This document shows positions 22,361 through 37,461 of a DNA stretch of 64,000 bases, one piece after another. Both the position numbers and the translations under genes were made by a program. Source of the DNA: Quadrisphaera sp. RL12-1S (lineage in GTDB: Bacteria > Actinomycetota > Actinomycetes > Actinomycetales > Quadrisphaeraceae). The notes under the pieces were generated by a model that was not told the DNA's origin, made no database searches, and saw only the letters and a list, made by a program, of their open reading frames with translations. Position 1 is the stretch's first letter, and every line of letters begins with the position of its first letter. Where the stretch lies: NCBI RefSeq assembly GCF_014270065.1, contig NZ_JACNME010000016.1, forward strand, positions 1-64,000. The letters are read 5' to 3'.

Positions 22361-22807
22361 TCAGCCCCAGCGGTCGTCCCGGCGGCGGTCCCACCGCTGC
22401 TCGAGGCGCTGCATGAAGGTGCCCTGGCGGCGGGCCCTCGCCGGCCGCTGGTGGCCGGCCTGCGGACGCGGGGCCGGTCGGCCGTCAGCCCCGACCACGC
22501 CGACCGGGCCGCTCTCCGCGCGGCCTCCGGCGCCGGAGACGGCGTAGAGGATGCCGCCCAGCATGATCACGAAGGCCAGGCCACCGATGCCGTAGACCCA
22601 GCCGCGCTGCGCGAGCGGGATGAGGAACAGGGTGCCCACGAGCGCCGCGAGACCCGCGACGGCGACACCCACGCCGACGACCACGCTGCGCCGGCCACCG
22701 CCCTGGCGGCGGGGGCCGCGCATGGTCGAGGCGAAGCGGGGGTCGTCGGAGAGCAGCTGCTGCTCCATCTGCTCCAGCAGACGCTGCTCGTGCTCGGACA
22801 GCGGCAC
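22361..22807 (-). CDS. DUF3040 membrane protein
   Basis: Small actinobacterial protein of unknown function, typically encoded next to dinB and mraZ. The MPLSEHEQRLLEQMEQQL opening is the DUF3040 signature; two hydrophobic segments follow (VVVGVGVAVAGLAALVGTLF and WVYGIGGLAFVIMLGGILYAV), then an Arg/Gln-rich cytoplasmic tail. The 148-residue length is normal. GTG at 22807 has a strong AGGAGGT site 6 nt upstream, and a TATCCT -10-like box lies about 35 bp upstream. Confidence 0.92.
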   Translation of the reverse strand: MPLSEHEQRLLEQMEQQLLSDDPRFASTMRGPRRQGGGRRSVVVGVGVAVAGLAALVGTLFLIPLAQRGWVYGIGGLAFVIMLGGILYAVSGAGGRAESGPVGVVGADGRPAPRPQAGHQRPARARRQGTFMQRLEQRWDRRRDDRWG

Positions 22808-22967: not shown

Positions 22968-24272
22968 TCAGGGGACTCCCCCGGTCGGAGGACGGCCCTG
23001 CCCACCGGGCCGCGGCAGCAGCAGCGACGCGGGCGCCACCACGCCGCTGCCGAACCGCCGCACCGCGGCGTCCACGGCGCGGTCGGCCTCGCGCCAGCCC
23101 CGCTCGGGCTCGTCCAGGCGCAGCTGGCGCGGCACCCGCTCGGCGTCGACGAGGCCCTCCACGCGCACCCCCACCAGCCGGATGCGGGCGCGCTGCAGGC
23201 CCATCGCCGTCCACAGGGCCGCGGCCGCGGCGTAGACGTCGCGCCCGGAGTCCGTGGCCTCGCGCAGCGTCCGCGAGCGCGTGACGGTGGTGAAGTCGGC
23301 GAAGCGCACCACCAGCACCACCGTGCGGCCCACGTGCCCGTCGCGGCGCAGGTGGCGGGCCACCCGCTCGGACATCCGCAGCACCTCGCGCAGGACCACC
23401 TCGGGGTCGTCGACGTCGACGGCGAAGGTCTCCTGCGCGCCGGTGCTCCGCTCGGCGACGGCCGCGCTGGGCACCACGGGCCGGGGGTCGCGGCCCCAGG
23501 CGAGCTCGTGCAGGGAGGCGCCGAGCGCGTCACCGAGGGCGCGGCGCAGTGTGGCCGAGGGCGTGTGCGCCACCTGGCCCACCGTGTGCAGGCCGAGGCG
23601 GGCCAGGGCCTGCTCGGTCTTCTCCCCCACGCCCCACAGCGCGCTGGTGGGCAGCGGGTGCAGGAAGGGCACCACCTGGTCGGCGGGCACCACGAGGGCG
23701 CCGTCGGGCTTGGCGCGGCCCGAGGCGAGCTTGGCCACGGCCTTCGTCGTCGCCAGGCCCACCGAGCAGGTCACGCCCTGCTCGTCGGCCACCCGGTCGC
23801 GCAGGTCGGTGGCGATCTGCAGCGGGGAGCCGGAGCGGCGCACCGCTCCGGAGACGTCGAGGAAGGCCTCGTCCATGCCCAGCTGCTCCACCACCGGGGT
23901 CACCGAGGTGAACAGGGCGACGACGGCGGCCGAGACCGCGGCGTACCGGTCGGGGTCGGGCGGGAGGACGACGGCGTCGGGGCACATCCGGCGGGCGCGG
24001 CTCATGGACATGGCCGAGTGGACGCCGGAGCGGCGCGCCTCGTAGGTGGCGGACAGGACCACGCCGCGGCTCGAGCCGCCGCCGACGATGACGGGCTTGC
24101 CGCGCAGGTCGGGGCGCTCGAGCAGGGAGACGGAGGCGTAGAAGGCGTCCATGTCCACGTGGAGCACGGTGCACCCGTCGCTGGCGTCGCCGGGGGTGTG
24201 CTGGCGCAGGCCGGCGACGGAGGCGGCCACGGCGGGGTCGAGCCCGGCCCGGGCGAGCTGGCTGCGGCTCAC
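22968..24272 (-). CDS. dinB: DNA polymerase IV (Y family)
   Basis: Translesion DNA polymerase. The 434-residue protein has the catalytic VLHVDMDAFYASVSLLERPD (first Asp pair) and LGMDEAFLDVSG (second Asp-Glu) motifs, a helix-hairpin-helix region (LWGVGEKTEQALARLGLHTVGQ) and the little-finger domain. GTG at 24272 follows a purine-rich GAGGGGG stretch; the longer open frame reads through intergenic DNA. No LexA box is seen immediately upstream, so it may not be directly SOS-induced. Sits between DUF3040 and dnaE2 on the same strand. Confidence 0.94.
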   Translation of the reverse strand: MSRSQLARAGLDPAVAASVAGLRQHTPGDASDGCTVLHVDMDAFYASVSLLERPDLRGKPVIVGGGSSRGVVLSATYEARRSGVHSAMSMSRARRMCPDAVVLPPDPDRYAAVSAAVVALFTSVTPVVEQLGMDEAFLDVSGAVRRSGSPLQIATDLRDRVADEQGVTCSVGLATTKAVAKLASGRAKPDGALVVPADQVVPFLHPLPTSALWGVGEKTEQALARLGLHTVGQVAHTPSATLRRALGDALGASLHELAWGRDPRPVVPSAAVAERSTGAQETFAVDVDDPEVVLREVLRMSERVARHLRRDGHVGRTVVLVVRFADFTTVTRSRTLREATDSGRDVYAAAAALWTAMGLQRARIRLVGVRVEGLVDAERVPRQLRLDEPERGWREADRAVDAAVRRFGSGVVAPASLLLPRPGGQGRPPTGGVP

Positions 24273-24495: not shown

Positions 24496-27400
24496 TCACC
24501 ACCCGGCGCTCCCGGAGCTGGAGTGCCACAGCTTGCGCGGGGCACCTCGCCCGGCACCGCCTCCGCGCTCGGCGTCGAGGAGGTCCTCGAGGGCGTCGTC
24601 GGCCGAGCGCTCCGGCGCTCCGGCGTCGTCCCCGGCAGCCGCACCGGCGGCGGAGACCCGCGTGTTGCGGGTGTCGCTGCCCGGCGGGGCGACGTCGGCG
24701 TACGGGGAGAGCAGGAAGCCGCTGGCGTGCACGAACACCCGCCGCGCCGACGCTCCCCCCATGCCGCCGGCGCGGCGCGCAGCGTCGTCGGCGGTGCGCC
24801 CGGCACCGGGCCGGTCGCCCACGGGCAGCCCGCTCGCCGCCGCCGCAGCGGCCTCCTCCTGCGCCGCGGCCTCCCGCGCGCCCGCTCCGGCGTAGCGCTC
24901 GTCGCGCTGCCCGGGGCCGGAGCGCCCGGAGTCGAGCCCGGGCACCGCGCCGTCGTCGCGGCCCTGGCCGATGACCCGCGAGGGCGCCATGACGGGCCGG
25001 CTCGACCGGGACGCCGCCGCCCCGGCCACCGCGGCCGCGCCGTACCCGGCCGCGGGCTGACCGGCCATGACGCGGCGCACGCCGTCCACCCCGTGCTCGG
25101 ACCAGACCCGCCACAGCGCCGGCATGGCCCACGCGCCCGTGGCGCGCAGCGACACCCCGCGCGGGCCGGTGCGGCGCAGCTCACCGCGCACCACGAGCAG
25201 CCACGAGCCGAACACCGTGGAGGCGTACGGGCCCTGGGCGTCCTCGAAGAAGGTGGCGTCCACCGGGCCGGTGGAGTCGTCCAGGGTGAGGAACACCACG
25301 CGCCGCCCGGAGCGGATGGGCGGGGTCTGCGTGGCCACCTTCACGCCCGCCACCAGCAGGTCGCTGCGCGCGTGCTGGTCGCGCAGCGCGCTGGAGCGCA
25401 CCACGCCGAGCGCGTCCAGCATCGGCCCGTACGCGGAGACCACGTGGTGGCTGGCGTCCAGGCCGAGCACCTCCAGCTCGGTGCGCACCTGCTCGGCCGC
25501 GGTCATCTCCGGCAGGCCCGACGGCTCGACGTCGCCGGGGGCGTCACCGAGGTCGAGCGCGAGCTGCACGTCCTCGCCCTCGGCGGACCGGGAAGGGCGG
25601 GGAGACCTGGACGACGACGACGAGGGGCGGGCGCGGGCGGCGCCGCGCTCGAGGGCACGGGTGTGCCGGTCGAGGTCGGCGACCTGCAGCAGCAGGTCGC
25701 GTCGCGTCACCACGCCGCGGCGGCGCACGGGGGCGGTGAGCCCCAGCCCGTAGACCGAGTCGAGCGCGCCGGTGAGCACGAGGCGCTCCAGCACCGGGCG
25801 GGACGGGTGCGCGCGGTTCCACAGGTCGGACAGCGAGTGGTACGGCTGGCCGGCCACGATGCGCGCGACCTCGGCGTCGCTGATGCCCTTGACCTCCGCC
25901 AGCGACAGCCGGATGCCCCAGTCGCGCCCGTCGGGCACGGCGGCGTCCAGGCGGTAGCGGCTCGCGAACGGGCCGTACCGCTCCGAGGCCTCCCGCTCGC
26001 CCCAGCGCGGCGGCTGGGCGGGCGCCGGCCGGGGCCTCTCGTCGTCGTCGCGAGCCGGGCCGGCGGGGAACTGCTGCAGCACCGCGGGCGGCGGCTGGTC
26101 CCAGGGCGCCACCGGCTCCACCCGGTACTCGCCGGTGGAGGCGTTGACGTCGAGCGGGAGCACCGCGACGCCCAGGGTGCGGGCGTCGTCGAGGATGAGG
26201 CGCTTGGGGTACATGCCCGGGTCGTGGGTGAGCACCCCGGCGAGGAAGTGCGCCGGCCAGTGGGCCTTGAACCACGCCGACTGGTAGGTGGGCAGCGCGA
26301 ACGCCGCCGCGTGGGCCTTGCAGAACCCGAACGAGGCGAAGGCCGCCAGCACCTCCCAGATCCGCTGCACCTCGGCCTCGCTGAACCCCGCCGCGAGCGC
26401 GCGCGGGCGCCACCAGGTCTCCACCTCGGCCTGCCCGTCGCGGGTGCCCAGGGCCCGGCGGACCTCGTCGGCCTGGGACAGGCTCACCCCGGCGGTCTCG
26501 GCGACGATCTCGAGCACCTGCTCGTGGAAGACCACCACCCCGCAGGTCTGCTCCAGCGCCCCCCGCAGGCGGGGGTGCAGGTGGTCGGGCGCGCGCCAGC
26601 CCTGCCGGGCCATGAGGAAGGGCGTGACCATGTCGGACTTCACCGGTCCGGGGCGGAACAGGGAGATGTCGATGACGAGGTCGGCGAAGTCCTGCGGGGC
26701 GAACTTGCCCACCAGCTCGCGCTGCCCGGGCGACTCGATCTGGAAGCAGCCCAGGGTGCGGGTGGAGCGGACCAGGCGGAAGGCGTCCTCGTCGTCCAGG
26801 GGCACCGCGTCCAGGTCGATGCGCTGGCCCGTGGTGCGCTCCACCTCCCGAGCGGCGTGCGCGAACGCCGACTGCATGCGGATGCCCAGCACGTCCAGCT
26901 TGAGCAGGCCCATGACCTCGACGTCGTCCTTGTCGAAGGAGCTCATGGGGAAGCTCGTGGCGGACGGCTGCACCGGGGTCCTGTCGAGCAGCGAGGCGTC
27001 GGAGAGCAGCACACCGCACGGGTGCAGCGCGGTGTGGCGGGGTAGCCCGTCGAGGCTCTCCACGAGGTCGTAGAGCAGGTCGAGGCGGGGGTCGGCCAGG
27101 CCGGAGGCGCGCAGCTCGGGCAGGTCGCGCAGGGCGTGGCGCACGTCGCGGGCGCGCAGGTGCGGGAAGGCCTTGGCGATGGCGTCGACCTCGCCGGGCG
27201 GCATCCCGAGGGCCGCGCCGACGTCGCGGACGGCGTGGCGGACCCGGTAGGTGTCGGTCATGGCGACGGCGGCCACGCGGTCTCCCCCGAAGCGGGCCAG
27301 CACCGCGTCGTAGACCTCGGTGCGGCGGGCGGACTCGACGTCGACGTCGATGTCGGGCAGCTCCGCGCGGGCGGTGGTGAGGAAGCGCTCCATGAGCAGG

Positions 27401-28848
27401 CCGTGGGCGAGGGGGTCGACCCCGGAGATGCCGAGCAGGTGGTTGACCAGGCTGCCGGCGCCGGAGCCGCGGGCGGCCACGCGCACGCCGAGGGAGCGGG
27501 TGAGGTCGCAGACCTCGGCCACGGTGAGGAAGTACGTGGGGAAGCCGAGCGCCCCGATGACGCCCAGCTCCTCGTCCATGCGGTGCCGCACGCGCTGCAG
27601 GTGGGCGAGCGAGGCGCCCGGGTAGCGGGTGTGGACGGCGCCCTCGCAGCGGGCGCGCAGCACGGCGCCGGCGTCCTCGACGGTGCGCACGGACGGGCCG
27701 GCCACCAGGTGCGGCTCGGGCAGGTGGACCGCGCCGATGCCGAGGTCGGCGCGCGGGTCGAGGTGGCAGCGGGCGGCGAGGCGCTCGGTGTCGGCCAGCA
27801 GCTGGGCGGCGCCGCCGGACTCGTGGGCGCGAGGCGCGCCGGCGGCGGTGGCGACCCTCTCGGCGAGGTCGCGCATCGCCGCGGCCGGCTTGAGCCAGCC
27901 GTGGCCGGTGGCCCTGTCGAGGTGGCGGGAGGCCAGCGGGACCAGGCGGCGGGCGGCGTCGAGCACGTCGGCGGTGGCGGCGCCCTCCGGGCCGCCGTGG
28001 CGCACGGCGTTGGTGAGGACGGCGGGCACGCCGGCCTCCCGGGCCAGGGCCAGGGTGCGCGCCGCGTGCCCGAGGCTGGCGGGGGTGCCCTCGGGGCCGA
28101 GGTGGCAGACCACTTCCACGGCCAGGCAGCCCAGCGGCAGTGCGGAGTACCAGCGGGCCAGCAGGGCGCGGGCGAGGTCGGGGCGGCGGGCCAGCAGCGC
28201 GCGGCCCACCTCGCTGTCCGGCCCGAGCAGCACGGTGAGCGCCGGGGCGCCGGAGGCGGGGTCGAGCGCGTGCTCGGCGATCTCGGCCAGGGTGGTCACC
28301 GGGGTGCCGCGTCGGCCGCCGACCGCGCTCAGCGAGCCGGGCGCCTCGCCGCGGGCGTGGGCGGCGGTGGACAGCCGGCACAGGCGGGCCCAGCCCGCAC
28401 CGGCCGGCAGCGGCGGGTCGCCCGGGTCCGGGGTCCAGCCCGCTGCCGCGGTCAGGGAGGTGCTGGAGCCGTGGGCGAGGACGACGACGCGGGGCAGCCG
28501 CGCGTCCACGGCGGCTCCGCCGCGCACCGGCGTCCTGCCTCGTCCCCCAGCACTCCCGTGATCATGGTCCCCCGCAAGCGGGAGGTGCCCCCAGTTGTGC
28601 ACACGCAGGTCGCTGGGCTCGACGGCGAGGTCCATCCCCAGCAGGGGGACGAGACCCTCCTGGGCGCACGCGACGGCGTGCTTGACCGCGCCGCGCAGCC
28701 CGTCGCGGTCGGTGAGCGCGAGGGCGCGCTGGCCGTCGGCGGCGGCGCGCTCGGCGAGGGCCGCCGGGGTGTCGGTGCCGTGCTGCAGGCTCCACCCGGA
28801 GGCGACGTGCAGGTGCGTGAACGAGCGGGCGGGCTGTGACGGCGGCAC
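24496..28848 (-). CDS. dnaE2: Error-prone DNA polymerase III alpha subunit DnaE2
   Basis: SOS mutasome replicative-type polymerase (C family). Domains: PHP at the N-terminus (FTHLHVASGWS), polymerase palm with PDIDVDV near residue 500, fingers (ISLFRPGPVKSDMVTPFLM, FGFCKAHAAAFALPTYQSAW), HhH, and an OB-fold region (RVVFLTLDDSTGPVDATFFE). GTG at 28848 follows GGGAGGAGCGAG and matches the conserved start. At 1450 residues it is well above the usual 1050-1170; extra length comes from low-complexity inserts (after about residue 85, ARDDDERPRP, PSSSSSRSPRP) and a C-terminal Ala/Gly extension of about 130 residues. A perfect LexA box lies upstream. No imuA'/imuB partner is adjacent. Confidence 0.93.
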   Translation of the reverse strand: MPPSQPARSFTHLHVASGWSLQHGTDTPAALAERAAADGQRALALTDRDGLRGAVKHAVACAQEGLVPLLGMDLAVEPSDLRVHNWGHLPLAGDHDHGSAGGRGRTPVRGGAAVDARLPRVVVLAHGSSTSLTAAAGWTPDPGDPPLPAGAGWARLCRLSTAAHARGEAPGSLSAVGGRRGTPVTTLAEIAEHALDPASGAPALTVLLGPDSEVGRALLARRPDLARALLARWYSALPLGCLAVEVVCHLGPEGTPASLGHAARTLALAREAGVPAVLTNAVRHGGPEGAATADVLDAARRLVPLASRHLDRATGHGWLKPAAAMRDLAERVATAAGAPRAHESGGAAQLLADTERLAARCHLDPRADLGIGAVHLPEPHLVAGPSVRTVEDAGAVLRARCEGAVHTRYPGASLAHLQRVRHRMDEELGVIGALGFPTYFLTVAEVCDLTRSLGVRVAARGSGAGSLVNHLLGISGVDPLAHGLLMERFLTTARAELPDIDVDVESARRTEVYDAVLARFGGDRVAAVAMTDTYRVRHAVRDVGAALGMPPGEVDAIAKAFPHLRARDVRHALRDLPELRASGLADPRLDLLYDLVESLDGLPRHTALHPCGVLLSDASLLDRTPVQPSATSFPMSSFDKDDVEVMGLLKLDVLGIRMQSAFAHAAREVERTTGQRIDLDAVPLDDEDAFRLVRSTRTLGCFQIESPGQRELVGKFAPQDFADLVIDISLFRPGPVKSDMVTPFLMARQGWRAPDHLHPRLRGALEQTCGVVVFHEQVLEIVAETAGVSLSQADEVRRALGTRDGQAEVETWWRPRALAAGFSEAEVQRIWEVLAAFASFGFCKAHAAAFALPTYQSAWFKAHWPAHFLAGVLTHDPGMYPKRLILDDARTLGVAVLPLDVNASTGEYRVEPVAPWDQPPPAVLQQFPAGPARDDDERPRPAPAQPPRWGEREASERYGPFASRYRLDAAVPDGRDWGIRLSLAEVKGISDAEVARIVAGQPYHSLSDLWNRAHPSRPVLERLVLTGALDSVYGLGLTAPVRRRGVVTRRDLLLQVADLDRHTRALERGAARARPSSSSSRSPRPSRSAEGEDVQLALDLGDAPGDVEPSGLPEMTAAEQVRTELEVLGLDASHHVVSAYGPMLDALGVVRSSALRDQHARSDLLVAGVKVATQTPPIRSGRRVVFLTLDDSTGPVDATFFEDAQGPYASTVFGSWLLVVRGELRRTGPRGVSLRATGAWAMPALWRVWSEHGVDGVRRVMAGQPAAGYGAAAVAGAAASRSSRPVMAPSRVIGQGRDDGAVPGLDSGRSGPGQRDERYAGAGAREAAAQEEAAAAAASGLPVGDRPGAGRTADDAARRAGGMGGASARRVFVHASGFLLSPYADVAPPGSDTRNTRVSAAGAAAGDDAGAPERSADDALEDLLDAERGGGAGRGAPRKLWHSSSGSAGW

Positions 28849-28915: not shown

Positions 28916-28931
28916 TCGAACTCCTGTTCGA
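28916..28931. promoter_or_regulatory. LexA (SOS) box upstream of dnaE2
   Basis: TCGAAC-tcct-GTTCGA is a perfect match to the actinobacterial LexA palindrome TCGAAC-N4-GTTCGA. It is centred about 75 bp upstream of the dnaE2 start and about 180 bp from the divergent MFS gene. DnaE2 is a classical LexA target in actinobacteria. Confidence 0.9.
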
Positions 28932-29102: not shown

Positions 29103-30599
29103 ATGTCCACCGCGAGCGCTGCCCCCGCGGGCACCGAGGGCTCCATCAGGAGCCTCATCCCCGCACGCATCGACCGGATGCGCTGGGCGCCCTTCCACAC
29201 CCGGATGATCATGGCGCTCGGCACCGCCTGGATCATCGACGGGCTCGAGATCACCGTGGCCGGCGCTCTCAACCCGATCCTGCAGGACAAGGCCGCGCTG
29301 GGGATGTCGGTCACGGAGACCGGGCTCATCGCCACCGTCTACCTGGTCGGCCAGGTGGTCGGAGCGCTCGTCTTCGGCCAGATCTCCGACGCGCTCGGCC
29401 GCCAGAAGCTGTTCATGCTGACCCTGCTGGTCTACCTCGGCGGCAACGCCCTGACGGCGCTGACGTGGAACGGAGAGGTCTCCGGCCTGGTCTTCCTGTA
29501 CCTCACGAGGTTCATCGCCGGCGCCGGCATCGGCGGGGAGTACGCGGCCATCAACTCGGCCATCGACGAGATGATGCCGGCGCCCTACCGGGGCCGCGTG
29601 GACATCGGCGTCAACGGCACCTACTGGGCGGGCTCGATCATCGCCACCCTGGGCACCTACCTCCTGCTCGACACCATGCCGATCAGCTGGAGCTGGCGGG
29701 TGGCGTTCCTCATCGGCCCGGTCCTGGGCATCGCGATCCTCTTCCTGCGCCGCCACCTGCCGGAGAGCCCCCGCTGGCTGCTCATGCACGGTCGCGAGCA
29801 GGAGGCCGAGGACAACATCGCCGCCATCGAGCGCCAGGTGGAGGAGAGCGGCCAGCACCTGGCCCCCGTGGACGACTCCAAGGCCATCGAGGTCCGGCCC
29901 GCCCCCACGCAGGGGTACTTCACCCTGGCGCGGGTGCTCTTCAAGACCTACCCCTCGCGAGCCGCGCTCGCCGCCACGCTGATGATCACGCAGTCGTTCC
30001 TCTACAACGCGATCTTCTTCACCTACACGACCGTGCTCACGGCGTACTACGGGGTCGCCGCCAGCAACACCCCGCTCTACCTCATCGGGTTCGCCCTGGG
30101 GAACTTCATCGGCCCGCTCGCACTGGGCCCGCTCTTCGACACCTGGGGCCGCAAGAAGATGATCGCCGGGACCTACCTGCTCTCGGGGGTCCTCCTGGCC
30201 GTCACCGCCGTGCTCTTCAACGCGGGCGTGCTCAACGCCGTCACCCAGACCATCGCGTGGGCGGTCATCTTCTTCTTCGCCTCGGCGGGCGCCAGCTCGG
30301 GCTACCTCACCGCCAGCGAGCTGTTCCCCATGGAGGTGCGGGCCAAGGCGATCGCCATCTTCTTCGCCATCGCCCAGCTCTGCGGCGCCGGCGCCCCGCT
30401 GCTCTACTCCTCGCTCATCGGGAGCCTGTACGACCCCTCCGTGACCCGGCTGTTCATCGGGTACCTCCTCGGCGCGGCAGTCATGGTCATCGGCGGCGTG
30501 GTGGCGGCGTTCCTGGCGGTGGACGCCGAGGGCAAGTCCCTCGAGGACGTCACCGCCCCCCTGTCCGCCGTGACCTCGCGGCCTCGCGCCACCGGCTGA
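29103..30599 (+). CDS. MFS transporter, sugar-porter-like
   Basis: Twelve-TM secondary transporter of 498 residues. It shows the MFS loop motif GQISDALGRQKLF after TM2, its repeat FDTWGRKKM in the C-half, RFIAGAGIGGEYAAINSAIDE, and the sugar/metabolite-porter motif PESPRWLLMHGR at the end of TM6. The substrate cannot be read from sequence; related proteins carry sugars, organic acids or aromatic acids. ATG at 29103 follows GGAGGAGATCG. TAGCGT at 29058-29063 is a possible -10. It lies between two SOS-boxed units and is followed by repeat-rich DNA, so it may have been inserted there. Confidence 0.88.
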   Translation: MSTASAAPAGTEGSIRSLIPARIDRMRWAPFHTRMIMALGTAWIIDGLEITVAGALNPILQDKAALGMSVTETGLIATVYLVGQVVGALVFGQISDALGRQKLFMLTLLVYLGGNALTALTWNGEVSGLVFLYLTRFIAGAGIGGEYAAINSAIDEMMPAPYRGRVDIGVNGTYWAGSIIATLGTYLLLDTMPISWSWRVAFLIGPVLGIAILFLRRHLPESPRWLLMHGREQEAEDNIAAIERQVEESGQHLAPVDDSKAIEVRPAPTQGYFTLARVLFKTYPSRAALAATLMITQSFLYNAIFFTYTTVLTAYYGVAASNTPLYLIGFALGNFIGPLALGPLFDTWGRKKMIAGTYLLSGVLLAVTAVLFNAGVLNAVTQTIAWAVIFFFASAGASSGYLTASELFPMEVRAKAIAIFFAIAQLCGAGAPLLYSSLIGSLYDPSVTRLFIGYLLGAAVMVIGGVVAAFLAVDAEGKSLEDVTAPLSAVTSRPRATG

Positions 30600-30753: not shown

Positions 30754-30819
30754 GAGCCTCCACCGCAGGTGACCTGGGTCAGTTCCGGAACTGACCCAGG
30801 TCACCTGCGGTGGAGGCTC
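30754..30819. repeat. 66-bp perfect palindrome without loop
   Basis: Two 33-nt arms meet between 30786 and 30787 with no spacer and no mismatch. The centre is GTTCCGGAAC and the flanks contain TGACCTGGGTCA. Such a zero-loop palindrome can form a cruciform and is normally unstable, so it may be recent or selected. Confidence 0.85.
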
Positions 30820-30836
30820 CAGGACCGACGCATCCG

Positions 30837-30877
30837 CACCTGACCGTGGTCACTCCCGGACTGACCACGGTCAGGTG
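30837..30877. repeat. Inverted repeat with 16-bp perfect arms
   Basis: CACCTGACCGTGGTCA at 30837-30852 pairs with 30862-30877 across a 9-nt loop. It shares the TGACC..GGTCA theme with the neighbouring 66-bp palindrome, suggesting the two are related copies. Confidence 0.8.
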
Positions 30878-30901
30878 CTGGGTCGCGACCCCGACACGAG
30901 A

Positions 30902-31225: not shown

Positions 31226-31717
31226 TCAGGAGGCGGCGAGCGGCAGACCGCCGAGCCAGACCCGGACGTCGAGCAGCGCGGCGACCTGGCCCGTGAACGC
31301 CTCGGCGCGGGCGAGGTGGGCGTCCGCCTCGGACGCCTCGACGGCCGGTCCGCGACCGCTGTCGACGGCGGCGCGGCGCTCGGCCGCGGCCCCGAAGAAG
31401 AGCGCCCAGTCCTCCAGCTCGGGCGCCAGGGCCAGCAGCGACTCCCACACGTTGACGGGACCGCGACGACGCCCCCCGACCAGCTGGCGGGCGGCGACCA
31501 CGGCGGCCCCGGCGCGCAGGGCGGCCAGGTGCGCCGCGACGAAGCGCTCAGCGGGGTCGAGCGCGGAGGCCGCCAGCGACAGCTCGGTGGCGGCCCGCTC
31601 GAGCAGCCGGACGGCACCCGCCGGCGCCGGCGGCCGCGCGGCGGGCACGGCGCCCTCGCCCGTGCGGGTGGTGGTGCGGCCCGCTGGACCGGTGCGGCGG
31701 GGCCGGACGGCGGCCAC
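31226..31717 (-). CDS. SAV_6107-type HEPN domain protein
   Basis: Helical protein of 163 residues. After an Arg/Pro-rich N-terminus, the region from AVRLLERAATELSLAASALDPAERFVAAHLAALRAGAAV (about residue 40 on) through LALAPELEDWALFFGAAAERRAAVDSG to ADAHLARAEAFTGQVAALLDV matches the actinobacterial SAV_6107 HEPN family. HEPN folds are often RNases or toxin-like, but the R-x4-H catalytic motif is not clear here. GTG at 31717 is 1 bp from the DUF6504 stop, so the two are co-transcribed and likely under the LexA box at 32174. The family normally neighbours dnaE2 and Y-polymerase genes; its function is unknown. Confidence 0.75.
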   Translation of the reverse strand: MAAVRPRRTGPAGRTTTRTGEGAVPAARPPAPAGAVRLLERAATELSLAASALDPAERFVAAHLAALRAGAAVVAARQLVGGRRRGPVNVWESLLALAPELEDWALFFGAAAERRAAVDSGRGPAVEASEADAHLARAEAFTGQVAALLDVRVWLGGLPLAAS

Positions 31718-31718
31718 G

Positions 31719-32102
31719 TCAGTCCACCACCCGGACGAGGCGCCAGCGCGCGTCACCGCTGCCGGCACCACCGTCTCCGGCGGGCTCGCCGGCCAGCTCG
31801 AACGTGCCGGGCTCCGCCCCGAACCCGGCGCTGGCGACCACGCGCCACACCTGCTCGTCAGCAGCAGGTCCCGCCACCCGGGCTCCCGGCTCGCGGGCGA
31901 GCGCACTGCTGCCTCGCACCTCGACCGCCTCGCCGCGCAGCGCCCTGGCCGCCACGCCCTGCCACCACGGCAGGCGCGCGCTCCAGGTGGCCAGCACCTC
32001 GCGCACCACGAAGAGGCGGCCCCGCCAGACGAACGCGGACGGCTCTCCCGACCCGCCCTCGGCCACCTTCACGTGCACGACCTCGTCGAACGACCGGCTC
32101 AC
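31719..32102 (-). CDS. DUF6504 family protein
   Basis: Small protein of 127 residues, unknown function. Diagnostic features are VSRSFDEVVHVKV at the start, SAFVWRGRLFVVREVLATW in the middle (a Trp-rich beta segment resembling proteins encoded beside dnaE2/imuB in actinobacteria), and WRVVASAG..GTFELA near the end. GTG at 32102 follows AGGAGGAGCT. It heads a two-gene unit with the HEPN protein, and a perfect LexA box is 72-87 bp upstream. By association it is a damage-tolerance accessory protein; a molecular role is not established. Confidence 0.8.
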   Translation of the reverse strand: MSRSFDEVVHVKVAEGGSGEPSAFVWRGRLFVVREVLATWSARLPWWQGVAARALRGEAVEVRGSSALAREPGARVAGPAADEQVWRVVASAGFGAEPGTFELAGEPAGDGGAGSGDARWRLVRVVD

Positions 32103-32173
32103 AGCTCCTCCTCCTGAGGCACTGGCGGCGCGGCCCCGGGGCTTCCCCTCCCCGGAGGCCGCGCCCGCCGACA

Positions 32174-32189
32174 TCGAACATCCGTTCGA
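32174..32189. promoter_or_regulatory. LexA (SOS) box upstream of DUF6504-HEPN
   Basis: TCGAAC-atcc-GTTCGA, a second perfect LexA palindrome, lies 72-87 bp upstream of the DUF6504 start. The nearest gene on the other side (CrtA-like, start 32369) is 180 bp away with its own -10-like box, so control of the minus-strand pair is more likely. Confidence 0.88.
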
Positions 32190-32368
32190 CAGCAGCAGTG
32201 AAGCGCTGATCTCGCTCCCCGTCAACCCGCTGTCCACGGCGACGACGCTGCCACCGGGGTCTGACAACCCGCTCCCACCTGCGACGACGCACCGGTGAGC
32301 ACTCGGTGGCCAGCCGGTGCGCGCCGCTGGGGAGGGCTGATGCCCGGCGTCGCGGCTACGGTGCCTCC

Positions 32369-33085
32369 GTGGTCTCCGAGCGCGCAGTCCCGGCCTGCGC
32401 CGTGCTCCACCTGTGGCGGGTCCCCTCCCCCGCCGTCCCGGCCGCCGTCGCCCGCATGGCGCTGGACCGGCGCCACCTGCGGGCCAGCGGCGCGGCGTTC
32501 TGGAAGCTGCTCGGCACCGGTGACGGGCGCACCTTCACCCCGCGCGACGCCGACCCCCACCACTGGGCCGTGCTCACCACCTGGGACGACGACGCGGGCG
32601 CCCTGGCCTTCGAGCGCTCCCCCGCGGTGCGCGCCTGGGACCGCCTGGCCGCCGAGCGGCTGCGGGTGGAGATGGTGCCGGTGGCCAGCCGCGGGCGGTG
32701 GTCGGGCCGGGAGCCCTTCGGAGACCCGGTGCCCACCCGCGCCGCGGCCTCCGGGGGCGGGGCGGGGATCGCCAGCATCACCCGCGCCCGCATCCGCCTC
32801 GGGCGCGGACGCTCCTTCTGGGGCGCCGTCCCCCCGGTCTCCACCGACCTGCACGCCGTGCCCGGCCTGCGCCTGGCCGTCGGCATCGGGGAGGCGCCCA
32901 TGGGGCTGCAGGGCACGTTCAGCCTCTGGGACGACGCGGCCTCCCTGCGCGACTTCGCGCACGGCCGCGCCGCCCACCGCGACGTGGTCGAGCGCACCGC
33001 TCGCGAGCGCTGGTACGCCGAGGAGCTCTTCGCCCGCTTCGCCGTCCGGTCCCTGGAGGGCACGCACCGGGGGGTGTCCCCGTGA
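32369..33085 (+). CDS. CrtA-like (spheroidene monooxygenase family) protein
   Basis: Putative carotenoid oxygenase of 238 residues, related to CrtA, which introduces a 2-oxo group into acyclic carotenoids. Conserved blocks are GAAFWKLLGTGDGRTFTPRDADPHHW-type sequence near residue 40 and RGRWSGREPFGDP near residue 110, both CrtA hallmarks. GTG at 32369 follows TACGGT plus 6 nt (leaderless-type start); an ORF extension upstream is not conserved. It overlaps the CruF-like gene by 4 bp (GTGA). The oxygenation chemistry is inferred from the family and from the carotenoid neighbours. Confidence 0.75.
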   Translation: MVSERAVPACAVLHLWRVPSPAVPAAVARMALDRRHLRASGAAFWKLLGTGDGRTFTPRDADPHHWAVLTTWDDDAGALAFERSPAVRAWDRLAAERLRVEMVPVASRGRWSGREPFGDPVPTRAAASGGGAGIASITRARIRLGRGRSFWGAVPPVSTDLHAVPGLRLAVGIGEAPMGLQGTFSLWDDAASLRDFAHGRAAHRDVVERTARERWYAEELFARFAVRSLEGTHRGVSP

Positions 33086-36837: not shown

Positions 36838-37461
36838 TCAGAGCTCGCTCATGTCCCCGGTCCCGGGGACGCCGTCGACCAGCCCGTAGCGCAGGTGCAC
36901 CACCCCGCGCGGGCTGGTGGCCGGCGGCTGCAGCAGCGCGAGGCTCGTCGGCACCGCTCCCCCGGCGAAGACCGCCTTGCCCCGGCCCAGCACCAGCGGG
37001 TGCAGCCACAGGTCGACGACGTCGAAGAGCCGCTCGGCCAGCAGCGTCTGCACGAGGTCGAGGCTCCCGACCACCTTCACGTGCTCGTGCCTGTCGCGCA
37101 GCGCCCGCACCGCGGCGGGCAGGTCCGGGCCGAGCAGCTCCGAGCCCGCCCAGGACAGGTCCGGGGCGCCGCGGGAGGCGACGTGCTTGGGGATGCTGTT
37201 GAACAGCGCCGCGAAGCCGCCGCCCGAGGTGGCGTCGACGCGGGGCCAGTAGTCGGCGAAGATCTCGTACGTGCGGCGTCCGAGCAGGAGGGCGTCGACG
37301 CCCTCGTAGGCGGCGTCCACCTGGGCGCCGGAGACCTCGTCGACGAGCGGTGCCTGCCACCCGCCGAAGGCGAACCCGCCGTCGGGGTCCTCGTCGGGAC
37401 CGCCGGGCGCCTGCCCGACGAGGTCGAGGGTGGCGAAGAGCGCGATGCTGATGATGCCCAC
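36838..37461 (-). CDS. Dihydrofolate reductase-like (RibD C-terminal) protein
   Basis: Cytosolic NADPH-dependent reductase-fold protein, 207 residues. It opens GIISIALFATLDLVGQAPG, has LLLGRRTYEIFADYWP, the VVGSLDLVQTLLAERLFDVVDLWLHP stretch and VLGRGKAVFAGG, all typical of the standalone RibD_C/YyaP-YwjB-like family. These proteins are of uncertain substrate and are not necessarily in folate or flavin synthesis. GTG at 37461 with a weak GGGAG site; a longer GTG start at 37566 adds non-conserved residues. Confidence 0.8.
   Translation of the reverse strand: MGIISIALFATLDLVGQAPGGPDEDPDGGFAFGGWQAPLVDEVSGAQVDAAYEGVDALLLGRRTYEIFADYWPRVDATSGGGFAALFNSIPKHVASRGAPDLSWAGSELLGPDLPAAVRALRDRHEHVKVVGSLDLVQTLLAERLFDVVDLWLHPLVLGRGKAVFAGGAVPTSLALLQPPATSPRGVVHLRYGLVDGVPGTGDMSEL

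Follow-up and report, generated by a model that had tools for sequence, protein, structure and literature searches.

A LexA-boxed DUF6504-HEPN gene pair in Quadrisphaera and its candidate link to DnaE2-type translesion synthesis in actinobacteria

We analysed a 64,000-nucleotide stretch of the Quadrisphaera sp. RL12-1S genome (contig NZ_JACNME010000016.1, positions 1 to 64,000; hereafter the window), in which two small adjacent genes, one for a stand-alone DUF6504 protein and one for a SAV_6107-type HEPN protein, lie behind a perfect LexA (SOS) box. The box is placed 72-87 bp 5' of the DUF6504 start, which is itself preceded by AGGAGGAGG, a strong Shine-Dalgarno sequence, and a single base pair separates the TGA stop codon of DUF6504 from the GTG of the HEPN frame, for which a later start at 31648 is also possible. 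A preliminary description of this DNA, made from the sequence alone, had given the box, its coordinates, its spacing and the 1-bp gap between the genes, all of them correctly. A second perfect box, 3.2 kb from the first, is located 68 bp 5' of the called start (28848) of a dnaE2 gene for an error-prone polymerase. In most relatives having all three genes, DUF6504, HEPN and dnaE2 form one run (they are contiguous in genome G026, for example), which in the window is split by the gene of a major facilitator superfamily (MFS) transporter.

The two perfect boxes are exactly those found in the whole genome of 4.6 Mb, for which base composition predicts only 0.05-0.1 perfect sites. Boxes with one mismatch precede lexA (C5:43056) and recA (C5:96184) in the same genome, both genes being recognised by eye. 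When at most two mismatches are allowed, the window contains three matches against 1.09 expected in shuffles, a number that 10 of 100 shuffles also reach; as this is unremarkable, the weight rests on the two perfect boxes. A search for a sigma-70-like promoter at the box found none. A chance origin of the box was rejected on its uniqueness in the genome, the expectation from base composition and its conservation in relatives. The features of the locus are collected in Table 1.

Table 1. Features of the DUF6504-HEPN locus and its surroundings (positions within the window)
Feature	Coordinates	Strand	Remarks
LexA (SOS) box TCGAAC-atcc-GTTCGA, operator of the DUF6504-HEPN operon	32174..32189	.	perfect palindrome, TCGAACATCCGTTCGA
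DUF6504 gene, 127 residues, stand-alone ImuB-C-like, predicted DnaE2 partner	31719..32102	-	PF20114, 75.9 bits
SAV_6107-type HEPN gene, 163 residues	31226..31717	-	PF18726, 90.1 bits
dnaE2, error-prone C-family polymerase	24496..28848	-	Pfam DNA_pol3_alpha and others; start from gene caller
Second perfect LexA box, operator of the separated dnaE2	28916..28931	.	genome-wide motif scan
dinB, Y-family polymerase adjoining dnaE2, part of the conserved neighbourhood	22968..24272	-	IMS match G000:C16:23721-24158
MFS transporter between dnaE2 and HEPN	29103..30599	+	opposite strand to the pair

To see how far the box is kept, we surveyed 148 genomes sampled evenly across the class, using the reversed motif as the control throughout. 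HEPN occurs in 112 of these genomes, and 111 loci were examined, leaving out G064, where the match falls at a contig end, and a second, sub-cut-off match of G005; at the G059 locus just 442 bases upstream were available. DUF6504 is present in 66 genomes with 70 matches in total, 49 of which fall within the regions used for box counts. In these 49 regions a perfect box is found within 500 bp upstream of DUF6504 in 40, a box with at most one mismatch in 46 and one with at most two in 48, with none in the control. Upstream of HEPN (within 1 kb) the box is perfect in 79 of the 111 loci and has at most one mismatch in 95, compared with 0/111 for the reversed motif, and at G067 and G090 a perfect box lies slightly beyond 1 kb from HEPN. 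The box stays with HEPN whether the gene stands next to DUF6504-dnaE2, ImuA'-ImuB-dnaE2 or dinB, and also when it stands alone. SOS control of DUF6504-HEPN, as put forward in the preliminary description, is thus strongly supported by the conservation of the predicted operator, which is present in related genomes with the exception of the Streptomyces-like ones.

The distribution of the remaining perfect boxes follows the same set of genes, as all five that occur elsewhere in the ∼1 Mb of surveyed regions precede dnaE2 (this window), DUF6504 (G090) or a methyltransferase-dinB unit (G066, G128 and G137). In the relatives where the three genes form one run, the stretch from HEPN to dnaE2 contains no box of one mismatch or fewer; among the loci with all three genes, such a box was seen there in the window alone. 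Ten dnaE2 genes lying apart from the pair were examined, two of them cut by contig ends, and four of the other eight have a perfect box of their own; only these four count, because the reversed control also gives one match at two mismatches. Sitting as it does within a shared divergent promoter region, the box at 32174 could instead mainly serve the divergent plus-strand gene (start ∼32306-32369), its nearness to DUF6504 being incidental. We give this hardly any credence, since the box remains with DUF6504 in 46/49 regions, whereas the gene on the opposite side varies in length and strand among loci.

What ties the pair to translesion synthesis is in the first place DUF6504, which co-occurs with close relatives of the window's dnaE2 (both in 59 genomes, DUF6504 only in 7, dnaE2 only in 15 and neither in 67; Fisher 7e-19). 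This and the other co-occurrence p values were computed without trees and are uncorrected for shared descent. The label dnaE2 in relatives denotes similarity to the window's dnaE2 (at least 51% identity), and DnaE2 A and B labels likewise reflect similarity rather than a tree. DUF6504 and dnaE2 also come and go together within family f18 (1/8 genomes) and family f27 (DUF6504 in 4, dnaE2 in 3 and both in 3 of 12 genomes).

The DUF6504 Pfam profile matches residues 427-499 of the 504-residue Shinella ImuB (E 5e-4, 20.6 bits), and an hhalign comparison with five proteobacterial ImuB C-termini returned E 4.5e-5 (probability 69%), as against 0.99 for the HEPN control. Judged by these alignments, DUF6504 is related to the ImuB C-terminal domain (ImuB-C). 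Its AlphaFold2 model is mostly beta (predicted local distance difference test, pLDDT, 82.8). ImuB-C is stated in PMC12926913 to be a beta-barrel without a close relative in the PDB. A search of PDB sequences with DUF6504 gave nothing at E 1, and VIA-align gave no clear relative, a result that says nothing about novelty of the fold. A Y-family search of this genome at E 0.001 found two genes and no ImuB: both start like active DinB by eye, the one beside dnaE2 being a full-strength IMS match, and the other lying outside the window. From the co-occurrence we infer that DUF6504 binds DnaE2, an interaction also predicted for stand-alone ImuB-C in PMC12926913.

We are confident that the SAV_6107-type protein has the HEPN helical-bundle fold; its best match among PDB sequences is 2hsb (E 0.23). 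At the canonical HEPN site the arginine is kept at the aligned column in 107 of 111 members, but a histidine 5-7 residues after it is found in 0/111, and hence the canonical R-x4-6-H near the last helix was not encountered. The R-x4-H that does exist lies in helix 2, and its histidine is replaced by tyrosine in most of the 50 members inspected from family f8; G042 has a histidine within the canonical stretch, together with the loss of the arginine and most of that stretch. The table of the HEPN survey by Anantharaman et al. 2013 likewise lists SAV_6107 (HEPN-M) as lacking an active site (PMC3710099). The RNA-targeting role suggested in the preliminary description is therefore probably wrong, there being no histidine at the canonical ribonuclease position.

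The same observations bear on a reading in which HEPN acts as a growth-slowing ribonuclease or toxin induced by damage, and DUF6504 is either its antidote or the subunit that targets it. This we regard as improbable, given the missing histidine and given how often the two genes live apart, unlike a toxin and its antidote: 46 genomes have both, 66 HEPN only and 20 DUF6504 only. A toxin-antitoxin pair was accordingly disfavoured. A PADLOC search had no match, speaking neither for such a toxin nor for anti-phage defence, which was also rejected. Among more distant HEPN relatives from outside the class but within the same phylum (nine genomes, L253-L261), those aligned show KR-N/H-x-x-D-Y at the canonical position; in the stretches retrieved around these nine loci, several of which have few or no gene calls, we found no LexA box of this type and, by BLAST, no listed partner genes.

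We next considered the neighbours of HEPN over stretches reaching ∼5 kb downstream of the gene (lower-GC loci were without gene calls in this comparison). In all 39 cases in which DUF6504 and HEPN lie within 3 kb of each other, both genes run in the same direction with DUF6504 first. The 111 HEPN loci comprise 35 with the order DUF6504-HEPN-dnaE2 (including G139, the dnaE2 of which is 75% identical to that of the window), 18 with dinB, 12 with a methyltransferase only, 10 of the ImuA'/ImuB/DnaE2A type, four with DUF6504-HEPN but without dnaE2 in reach, two with HEPN-dnaE2 but without DUF6504, and 30 with none of these partners. In 65 of the 111 a polymerase-type gene (dnaE2, ImuB or dinB) follows HEPN on the same strand. 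The designation of a gene pair, with which the preliminary description began, thus holds for the window, where the two genes adjoin, but is too narrow for the family, since HEPN often occurs without DUF6504 and is boxed in both settings.

The ImuA'-ImuB-DnaE2 mutasome is LexA-controlled and, like the system proposed here, combines an error-prone C-family polymerase with accessory proteins. Among the 10 loci of this type, HEPN heads seven in the full order HEPN-ImuA'-ImuB-DnaE2, six in family f20 with a perfect box and one in family f34 with a one-mismatch box; in G142 and G062 just DnaE2-like pieces are seen, and the G133 locus stops at ImuA'. In the f20 and f34 loci, ImuA' was named by position and size, Pfam giving no match. 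The window differs from the mutasome in that the ImuB-C part stands alone, no ImuB having been found in the genome or beside dnaE2.

A gene for an S-adenosylmethionine (SAM)-dependent methyltransferase is also common downstream of HEPN or dnaE2 and ahead of dinB (for example, L062:5846-6598); it is present in 90/148 genomes at E 1e-30 and has its own perfect LexA box in three f27 genomes. It co-occurs with HEPN (both in 81 genomes, HEPN only in 31, methyltransferase only in 9 and neither in 27; p 1e-6, uncorrected). A methyltransferase-HEPN link was set aside for this locus, as a search of the window's genome at E 1e-30 gave no match to the methyltransferase.

Family f8, in which 141 of 151 genomes have HEPN, shows a different neighbourhood. 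We inspected 50 of the 141 (the 30 best-scoring plus 20 spread across genera), and in these the box is perfect in 18, has one mismatch in 15 and two in 13, and is missing at up to two mismatches in four, with none in the control. DUF3040 lies downstream of HEPN in 50/50 of these loci and MraZ in 44/50, giving a row HEPN-DUF3040-MraZ, and MraW comes next in the two loci checked with Pfam. In the window a DUF3040 gene (22361-22807) adjoins dinB, and its place beside dinB here and between HEPN and mraZ in f8 suggests an old gene order shared with the division cluster.

Corynebacterium glutamicum, which has a PF18726 match, offers a point of comparison, its LexA regulon having reportedly been described by Jochmann et al. 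in 2009. According to PMC5055667, mraZ is cg2378 in this species, and the "conserved hypothetical protein" cg2381 belongs to the LexA regulon and is raised by ciprofloxacin, with an M-value of 3.86. On the gene order HEPN-DUF3040-MraZ, cg2381 is probably this HEPN.

Taking operator, partners and folds together, we consider it reasonably probable that the locus is a LexA-repressed, DNA damage-induced mutagenesis operon, with DUF6504 as a DnaE2 subunit and HEPN as a non-nuclease accessory. Upon damage, cleavage of LexA would free transcription of DUF6504 and HEPN at the first box and that of dnaE2 at the second. DUF6504, as a stand-alone ImuB-C-like protein, would then bind DnaE2 and stand in for ImuB, which acts as the adaptor elsewhere. 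The helical, non-nuclease HEPN protein would be made together with the translesion polymerase and would probably associate with the polymerase complex or regulate it. The mutasome-accessory role suggested in the preliminary description is in this way supported for DUF6504, by its relatedness to ImuB-C and its co-occurrence with dnaE2, and is only contextual for HEPN. We infer the whole of the latter role, and we would put the chances that HEPN assists the translesion machinery without being a nuclease at just short of even.

Several observations weigh against this interpretation. With respect to DUF6504, the ImuB match falls under the Pfam cut-off of 24.2 bits, DUF6504 has no match to the actinobacterial ImuB2 C-terminus (hhalign 0.069, probability 0.8%), and the search of this genome for ImuA' (ImuA2) came back empty in a test without a positive control. 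The regulatory side is weakened by the other four of the eight separated dnaE2 genes, where no site is better than two mismatches and one such site is 0.9 kb away from the called start, and by the Streptomyces-like genomes: a box with at most one mismatch is found in 0/11 HEPN loci of family f21 and in 1 of 71 named Streptomyces loci (within 600 bp upstream; at most two mismatches in 40/71, control 0). As to HEPN, its presence across genomes shows no association with that of window-type dnaE2 (p 0.57) or DUF6504 (p 0.18), family f26 keeps DUF6504-dnaE2 with HEPN in 0/12 of its small genomes, and f20 genomes keep a perfect HEPN box where there is only a DnaE2-like fragment (G062) or no second dnaE at E 1e-20 (G124). 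To these are added the 30 loci without a listed partner. HEPN as an obligate partner of DnaE2 is not supported, the two showing no co-occurrence.

In the f21 loci a two-mismatch site is seen at a near-constant distance in seven of the 11 (L048-L050, L071, L074, L076, L078, L082, L084, L085 and L140), and it looks as if LexA control of the Streptomyces-like HEPN genes had been weakened or lost. The two-mismatch sites of Streptomyces-like dnaE2 genes resemble the dnaE2 site TCGTACGTACGTTC, which PMC9380542 reports as validated.

Persistence of HEPN where dnaE2 has been lost makes a checkpoint role possible. HEPN might then act apart from the polymerases, serving as an SOS checkpoint or regulating growth in the manner of DivS, SulA and YneA, and would share operons with polymerase genes because both need LexA control. 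Its box is retained in loci without polymerase genes within reach as well as after loss of dnaE2, and in f8 the row HEPN-DUF3040-MraZ forms the edge of the division cluster, a spot that may nevertheless go back to the old chromosomal order common to dinB and DUF3040. The polymerase-type gene downstream of HEPN in 65 of the 111 loci also speaks against a separate function, and we rate the checkpoint role as rather unlikely, although worth keeping in view. Within the translesion reading, a broader proposal can be made only tentatively: SAV_6107 HEPN could be a common, LexA-controlled, non-nucleolytic adaptor serving at least three set-ups, namely ImuB-C with DnaE2, ImuA'-ImuB with DnaE2, and DinB.

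Two further observations concern the rest of the window. The transporter and HEPN genes converge, and the intergenic region separating them contains a perfect 66-bp palindrome (30754-30819, 33-nt arms with no spacer) followed by a second, near-perfect one (30836-30878). A search with this stretch gives 36 matches in the genome including itself, on several contigs; the palindromes seem to belong to an intergenic palindromic repeat family and are perhaps terminators. Elsewhere, a RibD C-terminal domain protein (36838-37461) lies beside genes that resemble a carotenoid cluster by eye and is ordinary.

The DUF6504 half of the locus is of a known kind, since stand-alone ImuB-C with DnaE2 has already been published: PMC12926913 (2026) describes a DnaE2-[ImuB-C] complex, a predicted one stated to be restricted to Actinobacteria, in genomes having stand-alone ImuB-C and dnaE2 and lacking imuA and imuB, a description that DUF6504 and the window's dnaE2 fit. 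The main text of that paper mentions neither HEPN nor LexA, and to its account we add an operator for LexA and HEPN as a partner. Earlier, Aravind et al. 2013 (PMC3765255) delineated the ImuB-C superfamily as a small domain at the ImuB C-terminus or stand-alone near DnaE2, DinB and SOS genes, which agrees with the present locus; they proposed binding of damaged DNA rather than of the polymerase, and the words "HEPN" and "actinobacteria" are absent from the main text. The HEPN survey (PMC3710099) shares with our family the name (PF18726), the actinobacterial distribution and the lack of an active site, and its table row for SAV_6107 gives no operon, whereas the present analysis connects HEPN with LexA and with genes for translesion polymerases. 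In the literature searched, we found no mention of DUF6504, PF20114, HEPN_SAV_6107 or PF18726. The HEPN half appears undescribed. Within these searches, two things seem new: that LexA control is widespread in this HEPN family, and that HEPN precedes polymerase genes of three kinds.

Studies of DnaE2-dependent damage mutagenesis have dealt mostly with mycobacteria and proteobacteria, where the accessory proteins are ImuA' and ImuB (PMC12926913). In our sample of the class, 59/148 genomes instead combine DUF6504 with a dnaE2 closely related to this one. HEPN was found in none of the sampled genomes of genus g11, which we provisionally took for Mycobacterium, so that mycobacterial work would have missed HEPN if its reading as an adaptor is true. 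Should HEPN take part in translesion synthesis, stress mutagenesis in many actinobacteria would gain a component open to experiment, a conserved SOS gene of unknown function; should it take no part, it would be a widespread SOS gene with another role. With the same switch found across much of the class, there is good reason to consider this HEPN protein a candidate component, so far overlooked, of the way these bacteria mutate under stress.
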